From: Desulfovibrio sp. Huiquan2017
GTDB lineage: Bacteria; Desulfobacterota; Desulfovibrionia; Desulfovibrionales; Desulfovibrionaceae
DNA: 64,000 nt
Direction of reading: 5' to 3'
NCBI RefSeq assembly: GCF_017351175.1
Contig: NZ_JAFMPN010000012.1
Coordinates: 67,208-131,207 of the forward strand
In this document: positions 743 to 27,307 of the stretch, one piece after another
Numbering within the stretch: position 1 is the stretch's first letter
Layout of the letters: each line of letters begins with the position of its first letter
Translations under genes and position numbers: made by a program
The notes under the pieces: generated by a model
Database searches by the model: none
Told to the model about the DNA's origin: nothing
Seen by the model: the letters and a program-made list of their open reading frames with translations, nothing else

Positions 743-1906
743 CTAGAGTATCCGGTCGAGGATGCCGAGGTCCTTGTCGCCGCGCCCGGACAGGCAGACG
801 AGCACGGACTTGCCTTGGAGGGCGTCCTTGTTCTCGATGGCGTAGGCCACGGCGTGGGAGGATTCCAGGGCCGGGATGATGCCTTCGCGCCGGGACAGGA
901 CCTTGAAGGCGTTGATGGCCTGGGCGTCATTGATGGTCGTGTAGTCCACGCGGCCGATGGCGTCGAGATGGGCGTGCTCCGGGCCCACGCCGGGGTAGTC
1001 CAGGCCCGGGGCCACGGAGTGCGACGGCTCGATCTGGCCGTCCGGGGTCTGGAGCAGCTTGGTCTTCATGCCGTGCAGCACGCCCTCGGTGCCGTGGTCG
1101 ATGGGCGCGGAGCTGTAACAGCCCGGCTCGCCGGTGCCCGCGGCCTCAACACCCACGATCTTCACGGATTCGTCCGGGATGAAGTGGTGGAACATGCCGA
1201 TGGCGTTGGAGCCGCCGCCCACGCAGGCCACGACCACGTCGGGCAACTCGCCCCGGTTGCGCTCCATGAACTGGGCCCGCGCCTCTTTCGAGATGATCTG
1301 TTGGAACTCGCGCACCAGGGTGGGGAAGGGGTGCGGTCCGGCGGCGGTGCCGAAACAGTAATGGGTGGTCTCCTGGTCCGCGATCCAGCGCCTGAGGGCC
1401 GCGTTGATGGCGTCCTTGAGGGTCTTGGTGCCCGATTCCACGGCGATGATGTCCGCGCCCATGAGGCGCATGCGGCCCACATTGGGTGCCTGGCGGACCA
1501 CGTCGGTGGCCCCCATGTAGATGACCGCCTTCATGTCGAGCATGGCGGCGGCCACGGCGGTGGCCACGCCGTGCATGCCCGCGCCGGTCTCGGCCAGGAG
1601 GACTTCCTTGCCCATCATCTTGGCCAGCAATCCCTGGCCCAGGGTGTTGTTGATCTTGTGCGCGCCCGAATGGTTCAGGTCCTCGCGCTTGAGCCAGAGA
1701 TCCAGGCCGAGATCCTTGGACAGGTTCGGACAGTAGGTGATGGCCGACGGACGGCCCACGTTTTCCTTGAGCATGTCGGTGAAGCGGCTTTGGAACGCCT
1801 CGGAGGGGAGGATGGTCCGCATGGCCTCTTCGAGCTCAATGAGCGGCGGCATGAGCAGTTCGGGGATGAACTGCCCGCCGAAATCGCCGAAGTATCCTTT
1901 TTTCAT
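743..1906 (-). CDS. trpB: tryptophan synthase beta chain
   Basis: PLP enzyme that condenses indole with serine to give tryptophan. The 387-residue protein has the normal TrpB length. It starts MKKGYFGDFGGQFIPELL, carries the PLP-lysine block with the HKINN motif (GAHKINNTLGQGLLAKMMGK), the ETGAGMHGVATA loop and the phosphate-binding GGGSNAIGMF. The ATG has a GGAAT/GGA-type ribosome site in the 9 bp after the trpF stop. It sits directly upstream of trpA. This is a TrpB1-type sequence, as expected for a gene paired with trpA. Confidence 0.97.
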   Translation of the reverse strand: MKKGYFGDFGGQFIPELLMPPLIELEEAMRTILPSEAFQSRFTDMLKENVGRPSAITYCPNLSKDLGLDLWLKREDLNHSGAHKINNTLGQGLLAKMMGKEVLLAETGAGMHGVATAVAAAMLDMKAVIYMGATDVVRQAPNVGRMRLMGADIIAVESGTKTLKDAINAALRRWIADQETTHYCFGTAAGPHPFPTLVREFQQIISKEARAQFMERNRGELPDVVVACVGGGSNAIGMFHHFIPDESVKIVGVEAAGTGEPGCYSSAPIDHGTEGVLHGMKTKLLQTPDGQIEPSHSVAPGLDYPGVGPEHAHLDAIGRVDYTTINDAQAINAFKVLSRREGIIPALESSHAVAYAIENKDALQGKSVLVCLSGRGDKDLGILDRIL

Positions 1907-1915
1907 GGTGATTCC

Positions 1916-2542
1916 TTATTCCATTTCCGCGAGAATCCGGAGGACTTCCCGCAGCTTGGTCTCGTCCTTGATGCCCGGCGCGCTTTCCACGCCGGAGTTG
2001 AAGTCCAGGCCGGAGGGGCCAGCCGTCAGGGCGCGCCTGACACTGTCTGGGCCGAGTCCGCCTGCAAGGAACCAAGGTGTTTGTATTTCAATATCTTGCA
2101 GAATGTCGATATCAATCGAATTGCCGGTGCCGCCCTGGCCTTTTGCGCCCGCGTCCAGGAGAAAGTGTCCGCAGACCTCGGCGTAGCGCTCCAGGTCGCG
2201 CACCAGGGCTCCGGGCGAGGGATAGGTGTCGGGCCAGAAGGTCCGGATGACCCGGTCCGGTCCGATCTTCCAGCAGAAGTCCACGTCCTGGCCGCCGTGC
2301 AGTTGGGCCGCGTGCAGCCCGCAGCGGCCCATGATTTCGATGACTTCGTCGGCGGTCTGGTTGACGAACACGCCGACCTTGGAGACCTTGCCGGTTTTGA
2401 CCGCAGCCACGAAATCCGGGGCCGCGTTGCGCGGGCTGCCGGGATGGAAGATGAAGCCGATGAGATCCACGCCGAGATCGACGCAGAGTTGGACATCCTC
2501 CATGCGGGTCATGCCGCAGACCTTGACCAGGGGGCGCGCCAT
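1916..2542 (-). CDS. trpF: phosphoribosylanthranilate isomerase
   Basis: Converts N-(5'-phosphoribosyl)anthranilate to the carboxyphenylamino-deoxyribulose phosphate by an Amadori rearrangement. The 208-residue TIM barrel opens with VKVCGMTRMEDVQL, whose Cys is the expected general base. It has GVFVNQTADEV and LHGGQD mid-protein, LDAGAKGQGGTGNSID with the conserved Asp, and the phosphate-binding end WFLAGGLGPDSVR followed by GLDFNSGVESAPGIKD. The stop of trpC (2543) abuts its start, so translation is probably coupled. Family length is about 200-210. Confidence 0.96.
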   Translation of the reverse strand: MARPLVKVCGMTRMEDVQLCVDLGVDLIGFIFHPGSPRNAAPDFVAAVKTGKVSKVGVFVNQTADEVIEIMGRCGLHAAQLHGGQDVDFCWKIGPDRVIRTFWPDTYPSPGALVRDLERYAEVCGHFLLDAGAKGQGGTGNSIDIDILQDIEIQTPWFLAGGLGPDSVRRALTAGPSGLDFNSGVESAPGIKDETKLREVLRILAEME

Positions 2543-3313
2543 TTATTTCGCTCCCGTCAGCTCGGCGAGCTTGGCGCCGGGGTCTTCGGCCTCCATCAGG
2601 GACGTGCCGATGAGGATGGCGTCGAAGCCGAGTCCGGCCATTTCCTCGACCTGGGCGCGGGTGGACACGCCGCTGGCGCAGATCCACAGTTCGCCGTCGC
2701 GCTTCTGCTTGATGAAGCGGCGGCCCTGGTCGAGGGTGGTGGTCAAGGTGTCCAGGTCGCGGTTGTTGACCTGGATGATATCCGCACCGGCCTCGCGGGC
2801 CCGGTCCAGGTCCGCCTGGTCGAAGATCTCGACCACCGGGGCCAGGCCGGGCATGCGGGCGATGTCGATGAGCTGCCTGAGATGGGTCGCGTCGTCGCAC
2901 ATGCGGGCGATGAGCAGCACGGCCGAGGCCGGGCTGGAGGCCGTCATGGCCACCTGGAGCGGATCGAAGATGAAGTCCTTACGCAAAAGCGGCAGGCCGG
3001 GCTCGTTCATCATGAACAGGAAGTCCGGGGTGCCCTTGAAGTACTTGTGTTCGGTCAGCACGGAAATGGCCGCGGCCCCGTTTTGCGCATAGGCTTCGGC
3101 ATAGTCGAGCGGATTGAGGTTTTCGCGCAGTACGCCCTTGCTCGGGCTGGCGGGCTTGAACTCGGCGATGATCGCGCCGGGTCCCTTGGCCCGGACGGCC
3201 TCGACGAAGGAGGGGCGCTCGCCCCGGTAGGCGGCCGGGATGCGCCCGGCCGCGAAGTCCTTGTGCAACGACTCGATTTCGAGCCGTTTCGCTTCACGGA
3301 ATTTATTCAACAT
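2543..3313 (-). CDS. trpC: indole-3-glycerol phosphate synthase
   Basis: Closes the indole ring to form indole-3-glycerol phosphate. This 256-residue single-domain TrpC is not fused to TrpF, unlike in enteric bacteria. Recognisable blocks are IIAEFKPASPSKGVLRENL near residue 50 (with the conserved Lys), LTEHKYFKGTPDFL, LLRKDFIFDPLQV and EVNNRDL-type IIQVNNRDLDT, then ICASGVSTRAQVEEM. The start at 3313 overlaps the last 11 bp of trpD, which suggests translational coupling in the trpEGDCFBA operon. Confidence 0.96.
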   Translation of the reverse strand: MLNKFREAKRLEIESLHKDFAAGRIPAAYRGERPSFVEAVRAKGPGAIIAEFKPASPSKGVLRENLNPLDYAEAYAQNGAAAISVLTEHKYFKGTPDFLFMMNEPGLPLLRKDFIFDPLQVAMTASSPASAVLLIARMCDDATHLRQLIDIARMPGLAPVVEIFDQADLDRAREAGADIIQVNNRDLDTLTTTLDQGRRFIKQKRDGELWICASGVSTRAQVEEMAGLGFDAILIGTSLMEAEDPGAKLAELTGAK

Positions 3314-4310
3314 AGGGTATTCCTTTTGTCAGTCCGGCGTGGACCACGTCCCGGGCGATGTCGGCGCACTCGGCCATGGTCCCCTTGTCCAGGAGATTGA
3401 GGCAACCTGCCAGATTGAGGGCCACCATGTCCATCATGGCCTCGGGGCCCTTGCCCGCCAGGATCAGCCGGAGCTTGTCCACGGCGTCCTCCTTGCCGGT
3501 GACGCGCACATCTTCCGGGGCATAGCGCGGGAAGCCGAGGGCGGACGGGTTGACCACGGCCTTGTCCATGCGGCCGTCGTCGATGATGTAGCCTCTGTTC
3601 ACGCCCCAGGTGGTCAGTTCGTCGAAGCCGCCCGCGCCCGCGAAGATAAGGGCGCGTTTGACGCCGGTCAGCAGCAGGGTCTCGCCCATGAGGAAGAGCC
3701 GTTCCGGGTCGCCCACGCCGATGAGCTGGTGGGATGGCCGTACCGGATTGAGCAGCGGGCCCATGAAGTTGAACAGGGTGCGGATGCCGAGCTGTTTGCG
3801 CACGGGCATGATGAACTTGAAGGCCGGGTGGTAGGCGGGGGCGAACAGGAAGGCGAAGTTGTATTTTTCGAGCCCGGCCTTGGCCTCTTCCGGAGTTTGC
3901 TCCAGCGGGATGCCCAATCCTTCCAGGGCGTCGGCCGACCCGCAGGAGGAGGACAGGGCGCGGTTGCCGTGTTTGGCCACGGTGTAGCCCATGTCCGCCA
4001 GGAACAAGGAAACCGCCGTGGAGTTGTTGAAGGAGTGCTGACCGTCGCCGCCGGTACCCACGGTGTCGAAGATGGGGTGGTCCGGGGTGGCCTGGATGCC
4101 GGGGATGGTCCGGGCGTGGGCCAGGCAGGCGCGCACACCCGCGGCCAGGTCCGTGGAGTCCTCGCCCTTGGCGCGCAGCCCCATGAGAAAGGCCCCGACC
4201 TGGGCCTCGGTCAGGTTGCCGGTCATGAGTTCTTCGAACATGAAGTCCGCCTGGTCGTCGCTCAGGGGACGTTTCTGGGCCAGGATTTCAAGGATTTCTG
4301 CTATGGTCAT
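3303..4310 (-). CDS. trpD: anthranilate phosphoribosyltransferase
   Basis: Transfers phosphoribose from PRPP to anthranilate. The 335-residue protein matches the usual 330-345. The glycine-rich PRPP loop is FDTVGTGGDGQHSFNNSTAV, followed by KHGNRALSSSCGSADALEGLG, which carries the conserved anthranilate-site residues, and RTLFNFMGPLLNPVRPSHQL. It is a separate gene from trpG, so the amidotransferase is not fused here. Six bp separate it from trpG, and its 3' end overlaps trpC by 11 bp. Confidence 0.96.
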   Translation of the reverse strand: MTIAEILEILAQKRPLSDDQADFMFEELMTGNLTEAQVGAFLMGLRAKGEDSTDLAAGVRACLAHARTIPGIQATPDHPIFDTVGTGGDGQHSFNNSTAVSLFLADMGYTVAKHGNRALSSSCGSADALEGLGIPLEQTPEEAKAGLEKYNFAFLFAPAYHPAFKFIMPVRKQLGIRTLFNFMGPLLNPVRPSHQLIGVGDPERLFLMGETLLLTGVKRALIFAGAGGFDELTTWGVNRGYIIDDGRMDKAVVNPSALGFPRYAPEDVRVTGKEDAVDKLRLILAGKGPEAMMDMVALNLAGCLNLLDKGTMAECADIARDVVHAGLTKGIPYVE

Positions 4311-4316
4311 GATATG

Positions 4317-4869
4317 TTATCCTTTTATATTCAAGAAGTTGGCAAGGAGTTTGGGGCCTTCGGGGGTGAGGATGGATTCCGGATGGAACTGCACGCCGTG
4401 CCAGGGACGGTCCCGGTATTGCAGCCCCATGACCTCGCCCTGATCGGTGCGGGCCGTGACCTCGATCTTGTCGGCGGCCTTTTCGGCCGGGACGATGAGG
4501 GAATGGTAGCGGCAGACCGTGAACGGCGAGGGCAGTCCGGCGAACACGCCCTGTCCCTCATGAAAGACCTCGGAAGTCTTGCCGTGCATGATCCGCCCCG
4601 CGCGTTCCACGGGCGCGCCCGCGAAGTGCCCCAGGGTCTGGTGGCCCAAGCAGACGCCGAGCACCGGGGTCTGTTTGGGCAGCCGGGCCAGGAATTCCAG
4701 GCAGAACCCCGCGTTTTGCGGGTTGCTCGGACCGGGAGACAGGCAGACCCGTTCGAGTTCGCCGCTTGCGGCCAGCTCCAGGACTTGCTCGCGGTCGTTG
4801 CGGATGACCACGGGATCGGCTCCAAGCTGCTGGAAGGCCTGCACCAGATTGAAGGTGAAGGAGTCGAAA

Positions 4870-4889
<20 letters not shown>
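4317..4889 (-). CDS. trpG: anthranilate synthase glutamine amidotransferase subunit
   Basis: Class I glutamine amidotransferase that supplies ammonia to TrpE. The 190-residue protein starts FLLIDNFDSFTFNLVQ. It has the catalytic Cys in PVLGVCLGHQTLGHFAGA and the His-Glu pair in WHGVQFHPESILTPEG. The KTSEVFHEGQGVFAGLPSPF segment is typical of TrpG/PabA. Its start lies inside the end of trpE (20 bp overlap), the normal coupling of the two subunits. It could also serve a PabB elsewhere, but no pabB is seen here. Confidence 0.95.
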
Positions 4890-6327
<1,438 letters not shown>

Positions 6328-6575: not shown

Positions 6576-7346
6576 TCAACAAGACTTTTCGTTGCGCCAC
6601 CACCACTGGGCCCGGTCGGCCAACAGGTCGAGATCGCCGCCGGCGGCCAAGCTGAGATAGGACATGAACTTGCGGTTGACTTCCTGCAGGAACGGATTGG
6701 CCTCGGAGATGATCTCGAACAGTTCCATATCCTGCGTGAGCATTTTGGAGGCCGCGTCGAGCCTGCGCCGGAAGGACGGGGTGACGAAGTTTTGGATGCC
6801 CTCCACATCGCGGGCGGCGGCCAGAAAGGCCACGGTGGAGGTGTAGTTCAGCCCCTGGACGTAGGCCATGGCCCGGTCGTGTTCCTCGGGCGTGGAGGCG
6901 AAGCAGCCATAGCCGCAGCGGGTGAACAGGTCGCCGACCCGGGCCGCCGCGTCCGCATCCCGGTCGCGGGCGGGCATGACCGCCACGCGTGGCTCGAAGC
7001 CCTCGGGGACGATCGGGCCGAAGAGGGGGTGGGTGCCCACCACCGGGCCTTGGTAGCGGTTGACCATGGCCTTGACCGGCATGACCTTCACCGAGCCCAC
7101 GTCGCACAATATGGTCGGTTCCGTCAGATGGGGCGCCATGCGTTCGAGCACGGCGTTCATGGCCGTGACCGGCACGCAGAGCAGGAGCAGGTCGCAGCCG
7201 TCGAGGGCTGCGCGCACCTCTTCGTCCGAGGAATGCCGGTCCAAGCCGGAGACGGACAGCCCGAGCCCGGTGAAGTCCGCCGAGAAGCGGCCGCCCATCT
7301 GCCCGCCCGCACCCACGATGGTGATATGGTGAATTGCCGTTGCCAT
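6576..7346 (-). CDS. tyrA: prephenate dehydrogenase (tyrosine branch)
   Basis: Oxidatively decarboxylates prephenate to 4-hydroxyphenylpyruvate using NAD(P). The N-terminal Rossmann motif is IVGAGGQMGGRFSADF. CDVGSVK and THPLFGPIVP match the conserved prephenate dehydrogenase blocks, with the catalytic His in THPLFGP. I chose the ATG at 7344-7346 (MATAIHHITIVGAGG, 256 residues) because GGAAAG precedes it and it clears the aroA stop. The frame is open further upstream but would overlap aroA. There is no chorismate mutase or ACT domain, so regulation must be elsewhere. It follows aroA by 23 bp. Confidence 0.9.
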   Translation of the reverse strand: MATAIHHITIVGAGGQMGGRFSADFTGLGLSVSGLDRHSSDEEVRAALDGCDLLLLCVPVTAMNAVLERMAPHLTEPTILCDVGSVKVMPVKAMVNRYQGPVVGTHPLFGPIVPEGFEPRVAVMPARDRDADAAARVGDLFTRCGYGCFASTPEEHDRAMAYVQGLNYTSTVAFLAAARDVEGIQNFVTPSFRRRLDAASKMLTQDMELFEIISEANPFLQEVNRKFMSYLSLAAGGDLDLLADRAQWWWRNEKSC

Positions 7347-7369
7347 GGTTCTTTCCGCGTCGCTGGGGG

Positions 7370-8710
7370 TCAGCCGACGATCTTTTTCCATTCCTCGAAG
7401 AAGCCCGGGAATGATTTGTTGACGCATGCCGGATTGTCAAGGTTGACCGTGATTCCGGCCAATTCGAACAGGGACAGGGACATGGCCATGCGGTGGTCGT
7501 TGTAGGCCTTGAAGTCCACCTCGCGGCCACGCGGCAGCGGGGCGGGCCGGACGATCAGCGAATCGTCGGTGGCTTCGGTGCCGCACCCGGTGCGGGCCAC
7601 TTCGGTGGCGCAGGCGGCCAGCCTGTCCGTTTCCTTGAGGCGCAGATGGGCCACGTTGCCGATGGTCGTGGGCGTGGAAGCGAAGGCGGCCACGGCGGCC
7701 ACGGTGGGCACCAGGTCCGGGCAGCGGCCCATGTCCACGCTGATGCCGCGCAGCGGGCCCGGCTCCACCAGGATACCGTCGAAGTTGACCTTGATGGACG
7801 CCCCCATCTGGCTGAGAATGTCCAGGATCGCCCGGTCGCCCTGGAGGGAATCGGCGGCCAATCCCTTGAGGAGCACCGGCCGCGTGCCCACGGCCCCGGC
7901 GGCCAGGAAATAGCTGGCGTTGGACCAGTCGCCCTCGACCTGGTACCCGGTGTTCTCGTAGCCGGTGGGCTTGACAATGAACCGGACTTTGCCCGGGGTC
8001 ACATTTTTGATCGAGCGCCACGGGACTTCCTTCCAGGTGTTTCCCTCGCGGATCTCCACGACGAATCCCGCTTTGAAGTCCTCCATGATGCGCAGGGTCA
8101 GGGCCACATAGGGCCAGGACACGGCCTTTTTGCCGGTCACCGAGACGGTTGTCTCGTGGTCGGCCATGGGGGCACCCAGAAGCAGGCCGGACAGATATTG
8201 GCTGCTCTCCTCCAGGGAGATCTCCACGCTTTTCTTTTTGTAGCCGTTGGCGGTCATGACGAAGGGCAGGAAGCCCGCCTTGTTCTCGAAATCGAACTTC
8301 GCGCCAAGCGCGGCCAGGGCGGTGGTCAGTTCGGCCATGGGGCGTTCGTGCATGCGCGCCGCGCCGTGGACCCGGAAAGAGCCCTTGCCCGCAGCGGCCA
8401 CGGCAGTCATCAGCCTGCATGTGGTCCCGGATTCGTGCATGAACAGCTCATGCGGGGCCTCGTCCTTGTGCTTGCCGTCCGCGTTGCCGCCCCTGGGCCC
8501 GTCTTCCATGCCCGTGACCGTGAGCCTGCCGTTTCGCTCCTCAAAGGACGCGCCGCAGGCGGTCAGGCAGTCCCGGGTGCGAGTGATGTCGTCGGAGTCG
8601 AGGACCGAGGATATCTCGGACACCCCCTTGGCCAGGGCGGCCGCGATCAGGGTGCGGTGGGACAGGGACTTGCTGGCCGGTGCGTGGATGATGATCGGGT
8701 CTTTGGTCAT
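7370..8710 (-). CDS. aroA: 3-phosphoshikimate 1-carboxyvinyltransferase (EPSP synthase)
   Basis: Adds enolpyruvate from PEP to shikimate 3-phosphate. The 446-residue protein starts MTKDPIIIHAPASKSLSHRT, which contains the Lys-Ser-x-x-x-Arg substrate block. It continues with SGTTCRLMTAVAAAGKGSF, RMHERPMAELTTALAALG, SSQYLSGLL, VEGDWSNASYFLAAGAV and HLRLKETDRL, the expected order of EPSP synthase motifs. The usual NAGT element reads ESGTT here, so this is a divergent member. Its ATG at 8708-8710 overlaps the pheA stop. It is part of the aro half of the supra-operon. Confidence 0.93.
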   Translation of the reverse strand: MTKDPIIIHAPASKSLSHRTLIAAALAKGVSEISSVLDSDDITRTRDCLTACGASFEERNGRLTVTGMEDGPRGGNADGKHKDEAPHELFMHESGTTCRLMTAVAAAGKGSFRVHGAARMHERPMAELTTALAALGAKFDFENKAGFLPFVMTANGYKKKSVEISLEESSQYLSGLLLGAPMADHETTVSVTGKKAVSWPYVALTLRIMEDFKAGFVVEIREGNTWKEVPWRSIKNVTPGKVRFIVKPTGYENTGYQVEGDWSNASYFLAAGAVGTRPVLLKGLAADSLQGDRAILDILSQMGASIKVNFDGILVEPGPLRGISVDMGRCPDLVPTVAAVAAFASTPTTIGNVAHLRLKETDRLAACATEVARTGCGTEATDDSLIVRPAPLPRGREVDFKAYNDHRMAMSLSLFELAGITVNLDNPACVNKSFPGFFEEWKKIVG

Positions 8711-9813
8711 TGCAGTTCCTCCTGGGTGGGGTAGGTGCCGAGCACTCGCAGCGTAAGGCATTGTTGGCGGATGTCTTCCAGCACGTCCTCGTACCGGCCG
8801 CCGCCCAGGTCGCAGGCCAGGTCGGCGAAAAAGACGTATTTCCATTTCTCGCCCCGGAAGGGACGGGATTCGAGCTTGGTCACGTTGATGCCCTGGTGGG
8901 CCAGGGTGGTCAGCACCCGGGCCAGGGCCCCCGGCCGGTTGGGCGTGGTGAACAAGATGGAGGTCTTGTCGCGCCGGTCCTCCTGGGAGGGGGCCGCTCC
9001 GATGATCACGAAGCGGGTCCAGTTGTCCGGCAAGTCCTCGATGGATTCGGCCAGCACGTTCATGCCGTGCATGTCCGCCAGCTTGCGGTGCCCGATGACG
9101 GCGGCGGCCTTCTTGCCCGCCACCACTTCGGCGGCCTCGGCCGTGGATTCCATGGGGATGGTCGGCACGTCCCGCAGATGGGCGTGCAGCCACTCGCGGC
9201 ACTGGCCCAGCGGTTGCGGGTGCGAATAGATGACCTCCACGTCCTCCACCTTGTCGGCGCGGGAGATGAGGCAATGGCTGATGCGGCTGAAGACCTCGGC
9301 CTGGATGTATACCTTGTATCTCATGAACAGGTCCACCACCTGGCCCACGGTGCCCTCGATGGAGTTTTCCAGCGGGATGACACCCAATTCGGCCCCTTCC
9401 TCGGCCACGGCCCGGAAGATTTCCTCGAAATTCCCTTTGGGTGTCAGCGAGGCGGACGACCCCATGTGTTCGATGGCCGCGAAATAGGAAAAGGTGCCTT
9501 CGGGGCCGAGATAGACCACCCGCTCGGGCCGCTGCAAATGGCGCGACGAACTCATGATCTCGCGGTAGATGGTTCGCAGGTGCTTGTCCGGCAGCGGGCC
9601 GGGCGAGGAGTCGGCGATCTTGTCCATGACCTCCTGCTCACGGAAGGGCTTGTAGATGGCTTCGCCCTTGGCCGCCTTGTACCGGCCCACGCTCAGGGAC
9701 AACTCGGCCCGCTGGTTGAGCAGGTCCACGATCTTCTTGTCCAGGACGTCGATGGAATTGCGCAGTTCCCCGAGATCGGGGATTACATTCTGGTTCTTAT
9801 TGTCGTCAGCCAT
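8707..9813 (-). CDS. pheA: bifunctional chorismate mutase / prephenate dehydratase
   Basis: Makes phenylpyruvate from chorismate in two steps. Residues about 10-95 are an AroQ chorismate mutase domain (LRNSIDVLDKKIVDLLNQRA, then a helical bundle). Residues about 100-280 are the dehydratase (YLGPEGTFSYFAA, VIPLENSIEGTVGQV, NWTRFVIIG with the conserved Thr-Arg-Phe). The last 80 are an ACT domain with NRPGALARVL and LESRPFRGEKWKY, the GALV- and ESRP-like phenylalanine-binding elements, so feedback inhibition by Phe is likely. The start at 9813 has GGAG six bases upstream. It overlaps aroA by 4 bp. Confidence 0.95.
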   Translation of the reverse strand: MADDNKNQNVIPDLGELRNSIDVLDKKIVDLLNQRAELSLSVGRYKAAKGEAIYKPFREQEVMDKIADSSPGPLPDKHLRTIYREIMSSSRHLQRPERVVYLGPEGTFSYFAAIEHMGSSASLTPKGNFEEIFRAVAEEGAELGVIPLENSIEGTVGQVVDLFMRYKVYIQAEVFSRISHCLISRADKVEDVEVIYSHPQPLGQCREWLHAHLRDVPTIPMESTAEAAEVVAGKKAAAVIGHRKLADMHGMNVLAESIEDLPDNWTRFVIIGAAPSQEDRRDKTSILFTTPNRPGALARVLTTLAHQGINVTKLESRPFRGEKWKYVFFADLACDLGGGRYEDVLEDIRQQCLTLRVLGTYPTQEELQ

Positions 9814-10020: not shown

Positions 10021-11004
10021 TCATCCCTCCTTGATCTCCTCCTGGAGGCGCATGCCGAAGTGGCGTCCGGCCTGGTCGGTGCGCACGAGGATCCGGTCGC
10101 CGACCTTGAGAGTGACCACGGACACTGGCTCGCCCTTGTCGGAGACCACGCGGATGGTTTCGGCGTTTTGCAGGAAAACCTGGCCTGTCTTGATGCCGCT
10201 CTCGGTCTCGACTTCGGCGGAGATGAGCAGCATGGGCCGGACTTCGACCTTGACGCGTCCCACGGTGGCCAGCGAAGTGGAGCCGTCTGCGCCGACGATG
10301 AGCACATCGGTGCCTGCGGCCAGTTCTTCGAGATACGTGGTCTTGTCGCCGGGCATCTGGGCATAGGCATGGACCGCGCCCGCGTTGATGCGGAAGGGGC
10401 GTGCGGCCACATAGGGGTTGGATTCGGTCTCGGCGTGAACCAGGAAGGAGAAGGCGCTGGAGTTGCCGATGAGCATGCCCTGGCCCTTTTTCAACATGGA
10501 GATGGTGTCCACGCAGACGCGGTGGCCCAGGCCGGTGGGTTCGATGGCGGTGACGGTGGCGGTGGAAAGTTCCATGGTTCCCTGGGAGAGTTTGAGTTCG
10601 GCGACGATCCGCTTGAGGTCGGCGGCTCCCTCGGGCAGGACCACGATGGTGTCGCAGCCGCGCTCCAGGATACCCGCTGCCAGCAGGGCGCGGTCCAGGG
10701 ATTCGCATTCCAGGGCCAGGCTGTCCACCTGGGCCAGGATGTTCTCCACCGGGATGATTTCCCATCCCTTTTTGAGGACCACGTTCTTGCCCGCCTTGAT
10801 CCCCTTGACCGCGACGTCCTCGTCGGCCTTTTCGGTCAGTTCGACCACGGGCATGTCCTCGGGGGTGACGACCGCGACCCGGCCGAGCGCCTTGACGGCC
10901 TCGACGCGGTCTTTCTCGACCATGACGGCGTCCACGCCGGATTCCAGGGCCAAGGTGATCAGGGTCTTGTCGAAAGGCACGGATTTGAAGATGACTTTTT
11001 TCAT
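10021..11004 (-). CDS. 3-dehydroquinate synthase II (archaeal-type AroB')
   Basis: In archaea and some anaerobes this NAD-dependent enzyme oxidatively deaminates and cyclises 2-amino-3,7-dideoxy-threo-hept-6-ulosonate (ADH) to 3-dehydroquinate, replacing DAHP synthase plus AroB. The 327-residue sequence starts MKKVIFKSVPFDKTLITLAL. It has the family blocks ATVTAIEPTGLGHRVCVDT, GMLIGNSSAFSFLVHAET, ARPFRINAGAVHAYAQ and LAAGTDVLIVGADG. It lies 10 bp after the ADH synthase gene that makes its substrate. It is unrelated to classical AroB. Confidence 0.93.
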   Translation of the reverse strand: MKKVIFKSVPFDKTLITLALESGVDAVMVEKDRVEAVKALGRVAVVTPEDMPVVELTEKADEDVAVKGIKAGKNVVLKKGWEIIPVENILAQVDSLALECESLDRALLAAGILERGCDTIVVLPEGAADLKRIVAELKLSQGTMELSTATVTAIEPTGLGHRVCVDTISMLKKGQGMLIGNSSAFSFLVHAETESNPYVAARPFRINAGAVHAYAQMPGDKTTYLEELAAGTDVLIVGADGSTSLATVGRVKVEVRPMLLISAEVETESGIKTGQVFLQNAETIRVVSDKGEPVSVVTLKVGDRILVRTDQAGRHFGMRLQEEIKEG

Positions 11005-11014
11005 GGCGGCTTCG

Positions 11015-11812
11015 CTATGCGTTGAGGTGGTTGAGGGCGGCCTCGACGGACTCGTCGCCGTGGACGATCATGTTCAGGGCCTCCACCAGGCGGGTGGGAT
11101 TCTCGTGCTGGAAGACGTTGCGGCCCACGGACAGGCCCGCGCCGCCCGCTTCCAGGGAATCATGAACCATCTGAAGGAATGCCTCGGTGCTGTCAAGTTT
11201 GGGCCCGCCCGCGATGACTACGGGGATGCAGCATGCGTCGCATACATGAGCGAAGGTTTTTTTGTCGCCGGTGTAGTTGACCTTGACCACGTCCGCGCCG
11301 AGTTCGGTGCCGACCCGGGCGCAGTGGGCCACGATCTCGGGAGCGTATTCGTTTTTCACCTTGGGGCCGCGCGCGTAGACCATGGCCAGGAGCGGAATGC
11401 CCCAATTGGCGGCATCGGAGGACATTTTGCCGAAATCGCTCAACATGGCGGATTCGGTCTCGTCGCCGAGGTTGCAGTGGATGGACACGGCGTCCGCGCC
11501 CAGCCGGATGGCGTCCTCCACCGAGGCTACCAGGGATTTCGCGTTGGGGAAGGGGGACAGGGAAGTGGAGGCGGACAGATGGACGATGAGCCCGATGTCC
11601 TTGCCCTGGGCGCGGTGTCCGCAGCGGACCAGCCCCTTGTGTTCGATGACGGCGTTGGCGCCGCCCTCCACGACCTTACCTACGGCCTCGCGCATGTCCA
11701 CCAGCCCGTCAATGGGGCCTACGGTCACGCCGTGATCCATGGGGACGATGATGGTCCGGCCGGTGTTGCGGTTGAAGATGCGCTCCAACCGGATGGCTTT
11801 ACCGATGTGCAT
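11015..11812 (-). CDS. ADH synthase (2-amino-3,7-dideoxy-threo-hept-6-ulosonate synthase), class I aldolase family
   Basis: First committed enzyme of the alternative shikimate route: a Schiff-base aldolase joining a deoxy-ketohexose phosphate fragment with aspartate semialdehyde. The 265-residue TIM barrel begins [20 protein letters not shown]. It carries [46 protein letters not shown] with the Schiff-base Lys, [10 protein letters not shown] and [14 protein letters not shown]. It is like the archaeal fructose-bisphosphate aldolase family, and pairing with dehydroquinate synthase II points to the ADH reaction. It is the first structural gene after the aromatic attenuator; ribosome site AAAGGAGAG. 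Confidence 0.92.
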
Positions 11813-11871: not shown

Positions 11872-11912
11872 AAAAAAAACAAGGGGCCGCCGGCTTTCGC
11901 CCGCGGCCCTTG
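11872..11912 (-). terminator. attenuator terminator upstream of the aromatic supra-operon
   Basis: On the minus strand CAAGGGCCGCGGGC, a GAAA tetraloop and GCCGGCGGCCCCTTG form a 13-bp stem with one mismatch and one bulged C, followed directly by eight T. It lies 60 bp before the first structural gene and after the aromatic leader peptide. Its 5' arm is shared with the antiterminator. Confidence 0.9.
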
Positions 11913-11976
11913 AAGAAGTTCTTGTTTGCTTGTGTGATCCACCAACAGGTTACACAGCACCTCTTCCAAGCCCGCG
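11902..11976 (-). promoter_or_regulatory. alternative antiterminator of the aromatic leader
   Basis: CGCGGGCTTGGAAGAGGT (11976 to 11959, inside leader codons 24-29) is complementary to ACTTCTTCAAGGGCCGCG (11919 to 11902): 14 Watson-Crick and 2 G-U pairs out of 18. The downstream arm includes the 5' arm of the terminator, so the two structures exclude each other. A ribosome stalled on the aromatic codons would leave the upstream arm free; one that reaches the stop codon would cover it. This is the logic of classical attenuation. Confidence 0.8.
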
Positions 11977-12045
11977 AGCATGGCTAAACCAATACCAAAA
12001 ATAAAAGTTGGAAAAGTATGCGGTGGGGATGGTGGTGGTGTTCAT
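11950..12045 (-). CDS. aromatic leader peptide (31 aa)
   Basis: Short ORF with nine aromatic residues among residues 10-20 ([11 protein letters not shown]: three Tyr, four Phe, two Trp). It is the sensor part of a transcription attenuator for the aro and trp genes that follow: translation rate through these codons would report charged tRNA-Phe, tRNA-Tyr and tRNA-Trp together. It starts at ATG 12043-12045 and stops at TAA 11950-11952, between the antiterminator arms. No clear Shine-Dalgarno sequence precedes the ATG, so the message may be leaderless or weakly initiated. The aromatic run in a gap of this kind is very unlikely by chance. Confidence 0.85.
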
Positions 12046-12053
12046 GGCAATTA

Positions 12054-12082
12054 GAGCTACACGGTTGCGGTCTGTCTGTCAA
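12054..12082 (-). promoter_or_regulatory. candidate promoter of the aromatic operon
   Basis: A perfect -35 TTGACA (12077-12082) is followed after 17 bp by TAGCTC, a poor -10. If used, transcription would begin almost at the leader ATG, giving a leaderless message. An alternative TTGGAA-16-TATTGA pair lies about 25 bp further upstream. Which is used cannot be told from the sequence. Confidence 0.35.
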
Positions 12083-26416: not shown

Positions 26417-27307
26417 ATGGAACTGAGACAGCTTATTTATTTCATTGCCGTGGCCGAGGAACTGCACTTCGGGCGGGCCGCCGAGCGGTGCCATATCGCC
26501 CAGCCGCCGTTGTCGCAGCAGATAAAGCGCCTTGAGGAGGAACTCGGGGTGACACTTCTGGAGCGGACCAGCCGGAAGGTTTCCCTGACCCCGGAGGGCA
26601 AGGAATTTCTCAAGCGGAGCAAGGATGTGCGCGACCGCCTGAACGAGGCCGTCATCTGCGTGCAGGACATGGCCCAGGGGCTTGAGGGGCAACTTCGGGT
26701 CGGCTTCATCGGCCCGGCGTCATTGTCCCGGCTGCCCCAGGCCATCCGCGCCTTTCGTGAGCGTAATCCGCGTATCCGCCTGGATTTTTCGGCCCAATCC
26801 ACATCCGAGCAACTGCCGCTTCTGCGCGGTGACCGGCTGGACATCGCCTTTGTCCGCCTGTTCGGCCATGACACTTCGGGGCTCAACTCCCTGCTTTTCC
26901 TGCGTGAACCCTATGTCCTGGCCCTGCCCGAAGGGCATCGTTTCTCGGATCGCGACGTTCTCGACCTGACCGACCTTGAAGGCGAACCGCTCATCTTCAA
27001 CCAACGCCTCGCCCAACCCGCCCTGTATCGTTCGCTGATCGGCTCCTTCCACAAGGTCGGTTTCATGCCCAATATCGTCCAAGAGGTGAACACCGAGCAG
27101 TCCACCGTGGCTCTGGTCGCCACCGGCCTGGGCTGCGCCCTGGTCCCGGCCTCCAGCGCCTCCAGCTACCGCTCCGGCGTGACCTTCCGTCCCTTGACGG
27201 GCGACCTCCCCCAGTGGGAGATCACCGCCCTCTGGAAAAAGAAGAACCAATCCACCATCCTCCAGAAGTTCCTCGACGTGGCCCGCGAATTTCGCGAGGT
27301 GCGGTGA
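26417..27307 (+). CDS. LysR-family transcriptional regulator
   Basis: 296 residues. The N-terminal winged helix-turn-helix is MELRQLIYFIAVAEELHFGR, AAERCHIAQPPLSQQIKRLE, then LLERTSRKVSLTPEG; the PPLSQQI helix is like the CatR/BenM branch. Residues about 90-290 are the periplasmic-binding-protein-like effector domain (LRVGFIGPASLSRLPQAIRA, LPLLRGDRLDIAFVR). The effector cannot be told from sequence. It probably controls itself and the divergent exported protein through the palindrome between them. Confidence 0.92.
   Translation: MELRQLIYFIAVAEELHFGRAAERCHIAQPPLSQQIKRLEEELGVTLLERTSRKVSLTPEGKEFLKRSKDVRDRLNEAVICVQDMAQGLEGQLRVGFIGPASLSRLPQAIRAFRERNPRIRLDFSAQSTSEQLPLLRGDRLDIAFVRLFGHDTSGLNSLLFLREPYVLALPEGHRFSDRDVLDLTDLEGEPLIFNQRLAQPALYRSLIGSFHKVGFMPNIVQEVNTEQSTVALVATGLGCALVPASSASSYRSGVTFRPLTGDLPQWEITALWKKKNQSTILQKFLDVAREFREVR

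Follow-up and report, generated by a model that had tools for sequence, protein, structure and literature searches.

The window analysed here, a stretch of 64,000 nucleotides of Desulfovibrio sp. Huiquan2017 DNA, very probably carries a ribosome-mediated transcription attenuator on a presumably leaderless mRNA in front of an aro-trp operon. The argument is drawn from the sequence and its comparison with relatives, that is, from the leader peptide, the predicted RNA structures, their conservation and covariation, the matching of codon content to the gene controlled and the position of the promoter. Mixed aromatic attenuation before this operon, as put forward in the original prediction made from the window alone, gains strong support from conservation, pairing and codon-content matching.

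The leader ORF and the operon behind it

The leader ORF (Table 1) holds nine aromatic codons within 11 positions (codons 10-20) of its 31 codons, just as had first been described for it. In a survey of all short ORFs of the window (8-75 codons, both strands, n=845), its aromatic-run score of 7.6 was the highest; a score of at least 5 was reached by two of the 845, and the maxima of ten block shuffles of the same scan lay between 3.3 and 4.6, by which a chance origin of the leader is rejected. The other high-scoring ORF, at 27258 on the minus strand (WFFFF), runs antisense in a LysR-type gene (named by eye) and was dropped as a chance occurrence. Pooled over the runs of all leaders, Phe is encoded by TTT in 431 of 541 cases and Tyr by TAT in 268 of 393, as compared with 7 of 100 and 11 of 48 in the nine aro-trp genes of the window, a comparison that is rough because the leaders stem from genomes of differing base composition.

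Table 1. Features of the attenuator and of the operon that follows it (window coordinates)
Feature	Position	Strand	Basis and remarks
-35 element TTGACA	12077..12082	-	begins 37 nt upstream of the A of the leader AUG
-10 element TAGCTC	12054..12059	-	17-nt spacer; transcription would start on the AUG or no more than about 2 nt from it
Leader peptide ORF, 31 codons + stop	11950..12045	-	ATG 12045, stop 11952-11950; homologues in relatives
Aromatic run, codons 10-20	11986..12018	-	codons 10-19 within the computed productive stall window
Region 1 (protector)	12005..12021	-	predicted pairing with region 2 in the absence of a ribosome stall; limits approximate
Region 2, antiterminator 5' arm (core)	11960..11979	-	inside the leader ORF; extended pairing to about 11939
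Region 3, antiterminator 3' arm	11899..11918	-	overlaps the terminator 5' arm
Intrinsic terminator hairpin (regions 3:4)	11880..11912	-	13 pairs, one mismatch, one bulge; -25.9 kcal/mol
Eight-T run	11872..11879	-	sequence; predicted 3' end of an attenuated RNA of ~174 nt
ADH synthase (2-amino-3,7-dideoxy-D-threo-hept-6-ulosonate synthase)	11015..11812	-	TIGR01949, 392.7 bits (cut-off 299.45)
3-dehydroquinate (DHQ) synthase II	10021..11004	-	NF002628, 564.6 bits (cut-off 508)
pheA, chorismate mutase / prephenate dehydratase	8707..9801	-	Pfam CM_2, PDT, ACT; start approximate
aroA (EPSP synthase)	7370..8719	-	named from the original prediction and conserved order; start approximate
tyrA, prephenate dehydrogenase	6576..7427	-	Pfam PDH_N
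trpE, trpG, trpD, trpC, trpF, trpB	743..6327	-	trpE family-scanned; others by order and by eye

The first gene of the operon encodes ADH synthase, the first enzyme of the alternative aromatic pathway, whose closest named relatives are mostly Pseudodesulfovibrio records, so that the window probably belongs to that genus. The leader had been proposed to couple ADH synthase, DHQ synthase II, pheA, aroA and tyrA, and possibly trp; the trp genes do appear to belong to the unit, trpE starting 248 nt after tyrA in the window and the order aro to trp being kept in the 45 typed relatives with trp genes, a few of which have gaps of 0.3-2.1 kb. In the scan of trpE, Pfam families scored above their cut-offs and the listed NCBIfam equivalogs below theirs. 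A trpA-like frame follows trpB toward the window edge.

Predicted structures and their conservation

Two mutually exclusive structures had been proposed to compete behind the run, a 13-bp terminator followed by eight T and an 18-nt antiterminator with 16 of 18 positions paired, and both were recovered when the RNA was folded, along with the fold between regions 1 and 2 (-35.7 kcal/mol for that stretch). Read from 11979 and from the stretch that ends at 11899, the antiterminator consists of 8+3+8 pairs with two mismatches (the count of 16 in the first 18 positions includes G-U), and the full predicted hairpin extends beyond this core, reaching -37.2 kcal/mol. The stop codon, said to lie between the antiterminator arms, does so with respect to the core arms, but it falls inside the extended stem. 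The fold of 12060-11866 as a whole has a z value of -2.1 versus shuffles, 4 of 200 of which were as good. A simple scanner working by its own rules reported neither a promoter nor a terminator between 11800 and 12350. That the element is a T-box, a TRAP site or another known RNA regulator has, as far as such elements are covered by Rfam, a negligible chance of being right, as no Rfam family (Trp, His, Leu and Thr leaders and T-box included) reached its gathering score in the window, and relaxed thresholds brought up sub-threshold matches to unrelated families, none of them convincing.

For comparison, 80 loci taken from ADH synthase relatives and 153 regions surrounding ADH synthase genes, some from genomes already represented, were joined with the window into 234 records (L081-L083 having been excluded beforehand), which reduce to 183 distinct upstream regions. 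Gene content was typed in 88 distinct loci from 93 longer regions: 45 with aro and trp genes, 15 with aro genes without trp, 25 with a stand-alone ADH synthase and 3 undecided. A leader with a run score of at least 3 precedes 45/45, 15/15, 16/25 and 3/3 of these, respectively, so that the leader expected before ADH synthase in related genomes is present in all 60 typed aro operons. The original prediction had been staked on the peptide or the pairing being conserved in relatives, and it stands on this point, the leader and both helices being conserved.

From the 80 operon leaders in which a terminator was called, fifty were selected by thinning out similar ones and were aligned (alignment A1). 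The terminator is paired in 98.8% of the cells, and six of its ten pairs show changes on both sides, a count that none of 500 shuffles matched. For the antiterminator, 90.3% of the cells are paired versus 35-44% when the arms are slid, and cells with changes on both sides number 17 versus 6.5 in shuffles; pairs with both-side changes (2 versus 2.1) and further pair types (12 versus 13.0) show no excess, and the covariation rests mainly on one pair of columns, 32-113 (UA 29, CG 14, AU 2, UG 2, other 2). The terminator leaves column 113 unpaired, so only the antiterminator can account for this covariation; column 32 holds the first position of a codon, and the change therefore turns the Cys of the peptide into Arg or Ser. 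The pairing thus suggests that the peptide end is maintained for the sake of the RNA. Conserved, covarying and, as predicted, mutually exclusive, antiterminator and terminator are what is expected of a ribosome-mediated attenuator.

Would the conserved peptide end not rather point to a TnaC-type arrest, in which a free aromatic compound, and not tRNA charging, makes the finished nascent peptide stall the ribosome? The fact that conservation of the end (A-C/R-G) goes beyond the run would agree with such a mechanism, but the same end switches among Cys, Arg and Ser as the RNA pair requires, the runs are Phe-rich, Tyr-rich or mixed depending on the gene controlled, and the productive stall sites of the model described below lie in or before the run and not at the end of the peptide; arrest by the peptide is therefore very unlikely.

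Pairing of the arms was also assessed as a duplex in 137 of the 183 regions, 24 with a run score below 3.3 and 22 without a called terminator being left out. The antiterminator arm begins a median of 5 nt past the run (at 79-82 nt in four leaders), and the cognate arms paired better than all 60 shuffles in 95 of the 137. When arms were swapped between species, at most 3 of 60 swapped arms were as good in only 32 of the 137 leaders, a test of covariation that is weak, probably because many leaders are close kin. The terminator caller found none in 22 of 159 leaders, among them the Phe leader of the genome of the window.

Codon content and the gene controlled

Classified by their runs, the 183 distinct regions comprise 100 leaders with Phe, Tyr and Trp, 25 Phe, 22 Tyr, 5 Phe/Trp and 4 Phe/Tyr leaders, and 27 regions classed as having none. 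The rule misfits four loci, which it called 'none' despite aromatic ORFs (L132, L211, L115 with a short FWPFYIY ORF and a terminator, and L121 with MAFFYFGLF near the gene), and one leader (L125) was set to mixed by hand. Of the leaders with all three amino acids, 93 of 100 precede operons. By contrast, no DHQ synthase II was seen beside ADH synthase behind 24 of the 25 Phe-class and 21 of the 22 Tyr-class leaders, many of these solo loci being read only about 200 nt past the gene, a span that did show DHQ synthase II in 19 of 20 operon controls. Phe is the only aromatic residue in 13 of the 25 Phe-class runs and is accompanied by Tyr in the other 12, and Tyr is alone in 16 of the 22 Tyr-class runs. 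The share of Trp follows the genes as well: at least two Trp codons occur in the runs of 23 of 45 aro+trp leaders and of none of the 15 aro-only ones (Fisher p 0.0002, uncorrected for kinship), and 11 of the 15 aro-only leaders have one, as the common pathway would need. These patterns are best explained by a sensor whose codon run can be exchanged, with Phe or Tyr prevailing to suit the gene behind it.

Alternatively, the short ORF might sense translation in general, with read-through upon any slow-down and only a minor part for the aromatic codons. Modelled stalls at codons 2-9 would indeed antiterminate too, but the aromatic content is kept across genera and is matched to the downstream genes, and this alternative is thus given very little probability, on a par with the arrest peptide. 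We return to attenuation governed by the aromatic codons.

A tree of 140 ADH synthases made by a quick method unites the Phe-leader copies from the genus of the window and one relative in a clade of 16 (SH-aLRT 98) and most of the Tyr-leader copies in a clade of 14, one of which was classed 'none' (SH-aLRT 92); paralogues without a leader fall into two clades, of 13 (96) and of 6 (99). Not all Phe and Tyr leaders belong to these clades, and several of the others sit on long branches whose position is uncertain. The genome of the window itself has three copies, one in the mixed operon, one behind a Phe leader (FFFFFSF, contig C1) and one without a leader (contig C11). The Phe- and Tyr-leader copies of ADH synthase would achieve by RNA what E. 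coli achieves with the isozymes AroF, AroG and AroH. The codon swaps suggest amino-acid-specific roles for these first-enzyme isozymes.

Several individual loci stand apart. The ADH synthase paralogues without a leader (L153, L035, L037, L106, L113 and kin) group in clades of their own; a RidA-like gene (named by eye) lies just 5' of the stand-alone Phe-leader ADH synthase at L152 and L100; and at L133 the leader RYYYYYF precedes the order ADH synthase, DHQ synthase II, aroE-like gene (named by eye), aroA. The leader upstream of ADH synthase at L154, kept in the Phe class, seems frameshifted relative to its neighbours, as a result of either an assembly error or decay.

The modelled ribosome stall and the proposed mechanism

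The effect of a ribosome was modelled by a mask on the RNA, and the measure was the cost of freeing the 5' arm of the terminator from RNA upstream of it, in a transcript that ends just after this arm. It was chosen after equilibrium folding and sequestration probability, and of the three it was the informative one. At equilibrium the full-length RNA favours the terminator in all ribosome states (class means 0.81-1.00; 0.58 in the window, the same in every state), so that the switch would have to be kinetic, and the sequestration probability differed only modestly between states. With the ribosome at the first, middle and last codon of the run, the freeing cost in the window is 21.7, 19.8 and 5.5 kcal/mol, and it is 9.6 with the ribosome at the stop codon and 11.8 with no ribosome; the respective medians of the 137 leaders are 15.3, 13.2, 8.3, 9.2 and 10.3. 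Compared with a ribosome at the stop codon, one at the first codon of the run raises the cost by more than 3 kcal/mol in 91 of these 137 and lowers it by as much in five. In the Tyr class the difference is nearly nil (11.7 versus 11.2), so that the energy model speaks for a choice of structure by ribosome position in most leaders but not in this class.

Followed codon by codon, the cost in the window amounts to 20-22 kcal/mol at codons 10-15 and 13-16 at codons 16-19, and it drops from 13.2 at Trp19 to 5.5 at Phe20. Codons 10-19, which include all three amino acids, are thus productive in the model, and the low value at codon 20 suggests that this Phe codon is probably not regulatory. The earlier proposal of a ribosome that stalls near codons 17-19 and leaves the upstream arm free agrees with the model, as does, in part, its counterpart, a ribosome at the stop codon that covers this arm: the 3' half would be covered, but the cost still amounts to about 10-12 kcal/mol, like that with no ribosome (11.1 with the slightly different stop-codon mask of the codon-by-codon run).

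We propose that the transcript begins on the leader AUG or beside it and that ribosomes would load on this 5' AUG. Should charged Phe-, Tyr- or Trp-tRNA run short, the ribosome would stall within codons 10-19 and free region 2, which encodes the end of the peptide, for pairing with region 3 as the latter is being made by RNA polymerase; the terminator would then not form in time, and the operon from ADH synthase and DHQ synthase II through pheA, aroA and tyrA to trp would be read. With all three plentiful, the ribosome would run past, region 2 would be partly covered or paired with region 1, region 3 would pair with region 4, and transcription would end at the T-run. Since stalling at one productive aromatic codon, whichever it is, should suffice, the response would be to a shortage of any of the three amino acids, and the operon is probably not coupled to the sum of three charged tRNAs, as had been suggested.

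Promoter position and a probably leaderless mRNA

Where does the leader mRNA begin? A TTGACA box with at most one mismatch starts at -39 to -35 from the leader AUG in 118 of 156 leaders, and 113 of these 118 have the TA of a -10 hexamer at a spacer of 16-18, as opposed to 7 of 118 at control spacers. A Shine-Dalgarno-like sequence was found before 152 of the 156 ADH synthase starts, before 10 of the 118 leaders with the -35 box and before 16 of the 38 others; none was seen before the leader AUG in the window. From the spacing of the two elements, and from the scarcity of Shine-Dalgarno-like sequences, it follows that the mRNA probably begins at the leader AUG or beside it, the exact start being deduced from the promoter. 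Exceptions to this pattern include gut Desulfovibrio and the operon copies of Desulfoluna. Start codons of the leaders were set by rule, and some leaders without the -35 box (e.g. L201, L194, L156) may truly start further upstream. Overall, the counts suggest that a leaderless mRNA is usual for the aromatic attenuator in sulfate reducers.

Relation to known attenuators

Leaders that read several amino acids are known from thr (Thr/Ile) and ilvGMEDA (Ile/Val/Leu), and the aromatic leaders of E. coli read one amino acid each. The leader of the window had been contrasted with single-amino-acid leaders as usually described, and this contrast holds for the aromatic leaders of E. coli but not in general, as thr and ilvGMEDA provide a precedent. 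With the E. coli trp, pheA, thr and ilvGMEDA leaders, for which the part of PMC1183508 consulted lists attenuation, it shares a short ORF with regulatory codons, a competing antiterminator and terminator and a biosynthetic operon; it differs from those of E. coli in that a single supraoperon is preceded by intermixed Phe, Tyr and Trp codons and that related copies exist with shifted codons.

For sulfate reducers, a table published in 2005 (PMC1173090, Table 7) includes a putative attenuator in front of D. vulgaris aroA'>aroB'>aroQ-pheA>aroF>tyrA>[trp operon], with a website of attenuator predictions as its source. It concerns the same operon type and the same kind of element, likewise in silico, but the portion of that paper available to us treats one species, does not use the word 'leader' and gives neither codons nor a comparison. 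The words aromatic, tryptophan and leader peptide are absent from a paper on delta-proteobacteria (PMC545781), and the only amino-acid leaders named in the accessible portion of an Rfam leader survey with 10 Desulfovibrionales genomes are Trp, His, Leu and Thr (PMC3766115). A literature search, mostly among papers open without subscription and to be taken as weak evidence, found no description of a Phe+Tyr+Trp leader or of such codon swaps.

Within the literature covered, and as far as the accessible excerpts go, the nearest characterised leader is AroR of C. glutamicum, which precedes aroF, for a DAHP synthase, and contains Phe-Tyr-Phe codons (PMC11802643, PMC4046766). As in the window, aromatic codons stand before the first enzyme of the aromatic pathway; unlike the window, phylum and first enzyme are different, and the excerpts mention no Trp codons. 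According to the excerpt of PMC11802643, AroR responds to Phe, and Tyr supply is without effect despite the Tyr codons, which counts against the three-amino-acid reading of the leader of the window.

The nearest leaderless attenuator, with the same restriction, is that of S. meliloti trp, the RNA of which also begins with the AUG of the leader ORF, but which has a Trp leader, a 14-aa peptide and known functions in trans (PMC7298713, in part). Could the terminated RNA or the peptide in Desulfovibrio likewise act in trans, as rnTrpL/peTrpL do in Sinorhizobium, besides or instead of attenuation in cis? The precedent of a leaderless attenuated RNA of similar design speaks for it (PMC7298713, in part), but codons matched to the genes in cis argue for a cis role first, and action in trans appears even less probable than peptide arrest or an unspecific sensor.

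Attenuation in cis, by one kind of RNA switch that carries Phe, Tyr, Phe+Trp or all-three runs, each before a fitting gene, would amount to a natural codon-swap series. Such variants make it testable which leader codons set the response and what sensitivity is lost by mixing amino acids, a lower share of cognate codons lowering sensitivity in the modelling reported in the consulted part of PMC1183508. A broad mixed leader that works beside sharper single-amino-acid leaders would fit this result.

A wider leader family

The aromatic regulon as a whole is likely run largely by one duplicated, mostly leaderless attenuator family, the codon cassette of which would have been rewritten several times: to Phe, Tyr and Trp for the common operon, to Phe or Tyr for ADH synthase isozymes and symporters and to a Trp-rich form for split-off trp operons, the last by the same or by separate descent. 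A covariance model (R1) was built from the 50 operon leaders of alignment A1. In a recall test it found 6/6 Phe leaders, 6/6 Tyr leaders and the one Phe/Trp leader given and none of five paralogues without a leader; it misses the Desulfoluna operon leader L147.

Split-off trp operons were sought in 28 genomes in which the aro operon either lacks trp or was read too short a way to tell, and a trpE match was found in 24 genomes. Among 24 loci with trpE at the head of a trp cluster and no aro gene in the upstream stretch read, 22 have a WW, WWW or WWRWW leader before the genes, chosen as the best Trp cluster among short ORFs at most 700 nt upstream and uncontrolled for chance; the other two, L251 and L259, have no qualifying Trp leader. 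The leader ORFs hold two to four Trp codons, and several also hold Phe codons, which makes 'Trp-rich' the right word. Six loci with the order trpG>trpE (L261-L266), set apart from these, are without such a Trp leader. R1 matched only 4 of the 23 split trp loci given to it, and weakly (E 0.01-0.05), and their descent is therefore left as same or separate.

Across 59 genomes of the family, R1 has at least one match at E 1e-4 in 48. Twenty further regions, corresponding to 21 of the 79 matches listed and chosen because these had not already been met beside an ADH synthase gene, were read, with products named by eye: eight regions precede symporters (three of them were family-scanned and match Pfam SSF), five precede stand-alone ADH synthases with Phe leaders, four operon-type ADH synthases with mixed or Phe/Tyr leaders (one cut by a contig end) and two trpE with WW leaders. 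In the remaining region the match, L328, proved false, being a terminator at a gene end and not a leader.

In the genome of the window itself, R1 marks three places at E <1e-6, namely the leader of the window, that of the Phe copy of ADH synthase and a symporter leader; the next matches are the reverse strands of these three or weaker than E 0.05, such as one on contig C4 (L279, E 0.056). At the third place (L278, contig C14), the Phe leader MQSYLNRTRSFFSFRFFRSACGFEVCV is followed by a small protein, which belongs to the symporter small accessory proteins (NF045580), and by a sodium:solute symporter. The sodium symporters behind Phe or Tyr leaders are thus predicted to import Phe and Tyr, respectively, that of L278 phenylalanine, which would supply substrates for a symporter family hitherto uncharacterised. 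On contig 13 of one relative (G129, L325), two tandem sodium symporters that are 85% identical have, respectively, a Phe leader (FLFAFFGF) and a Tyr leader (YFYAYYGY), and both leaders share the antiterminator-coding peptide end CGSVECV.
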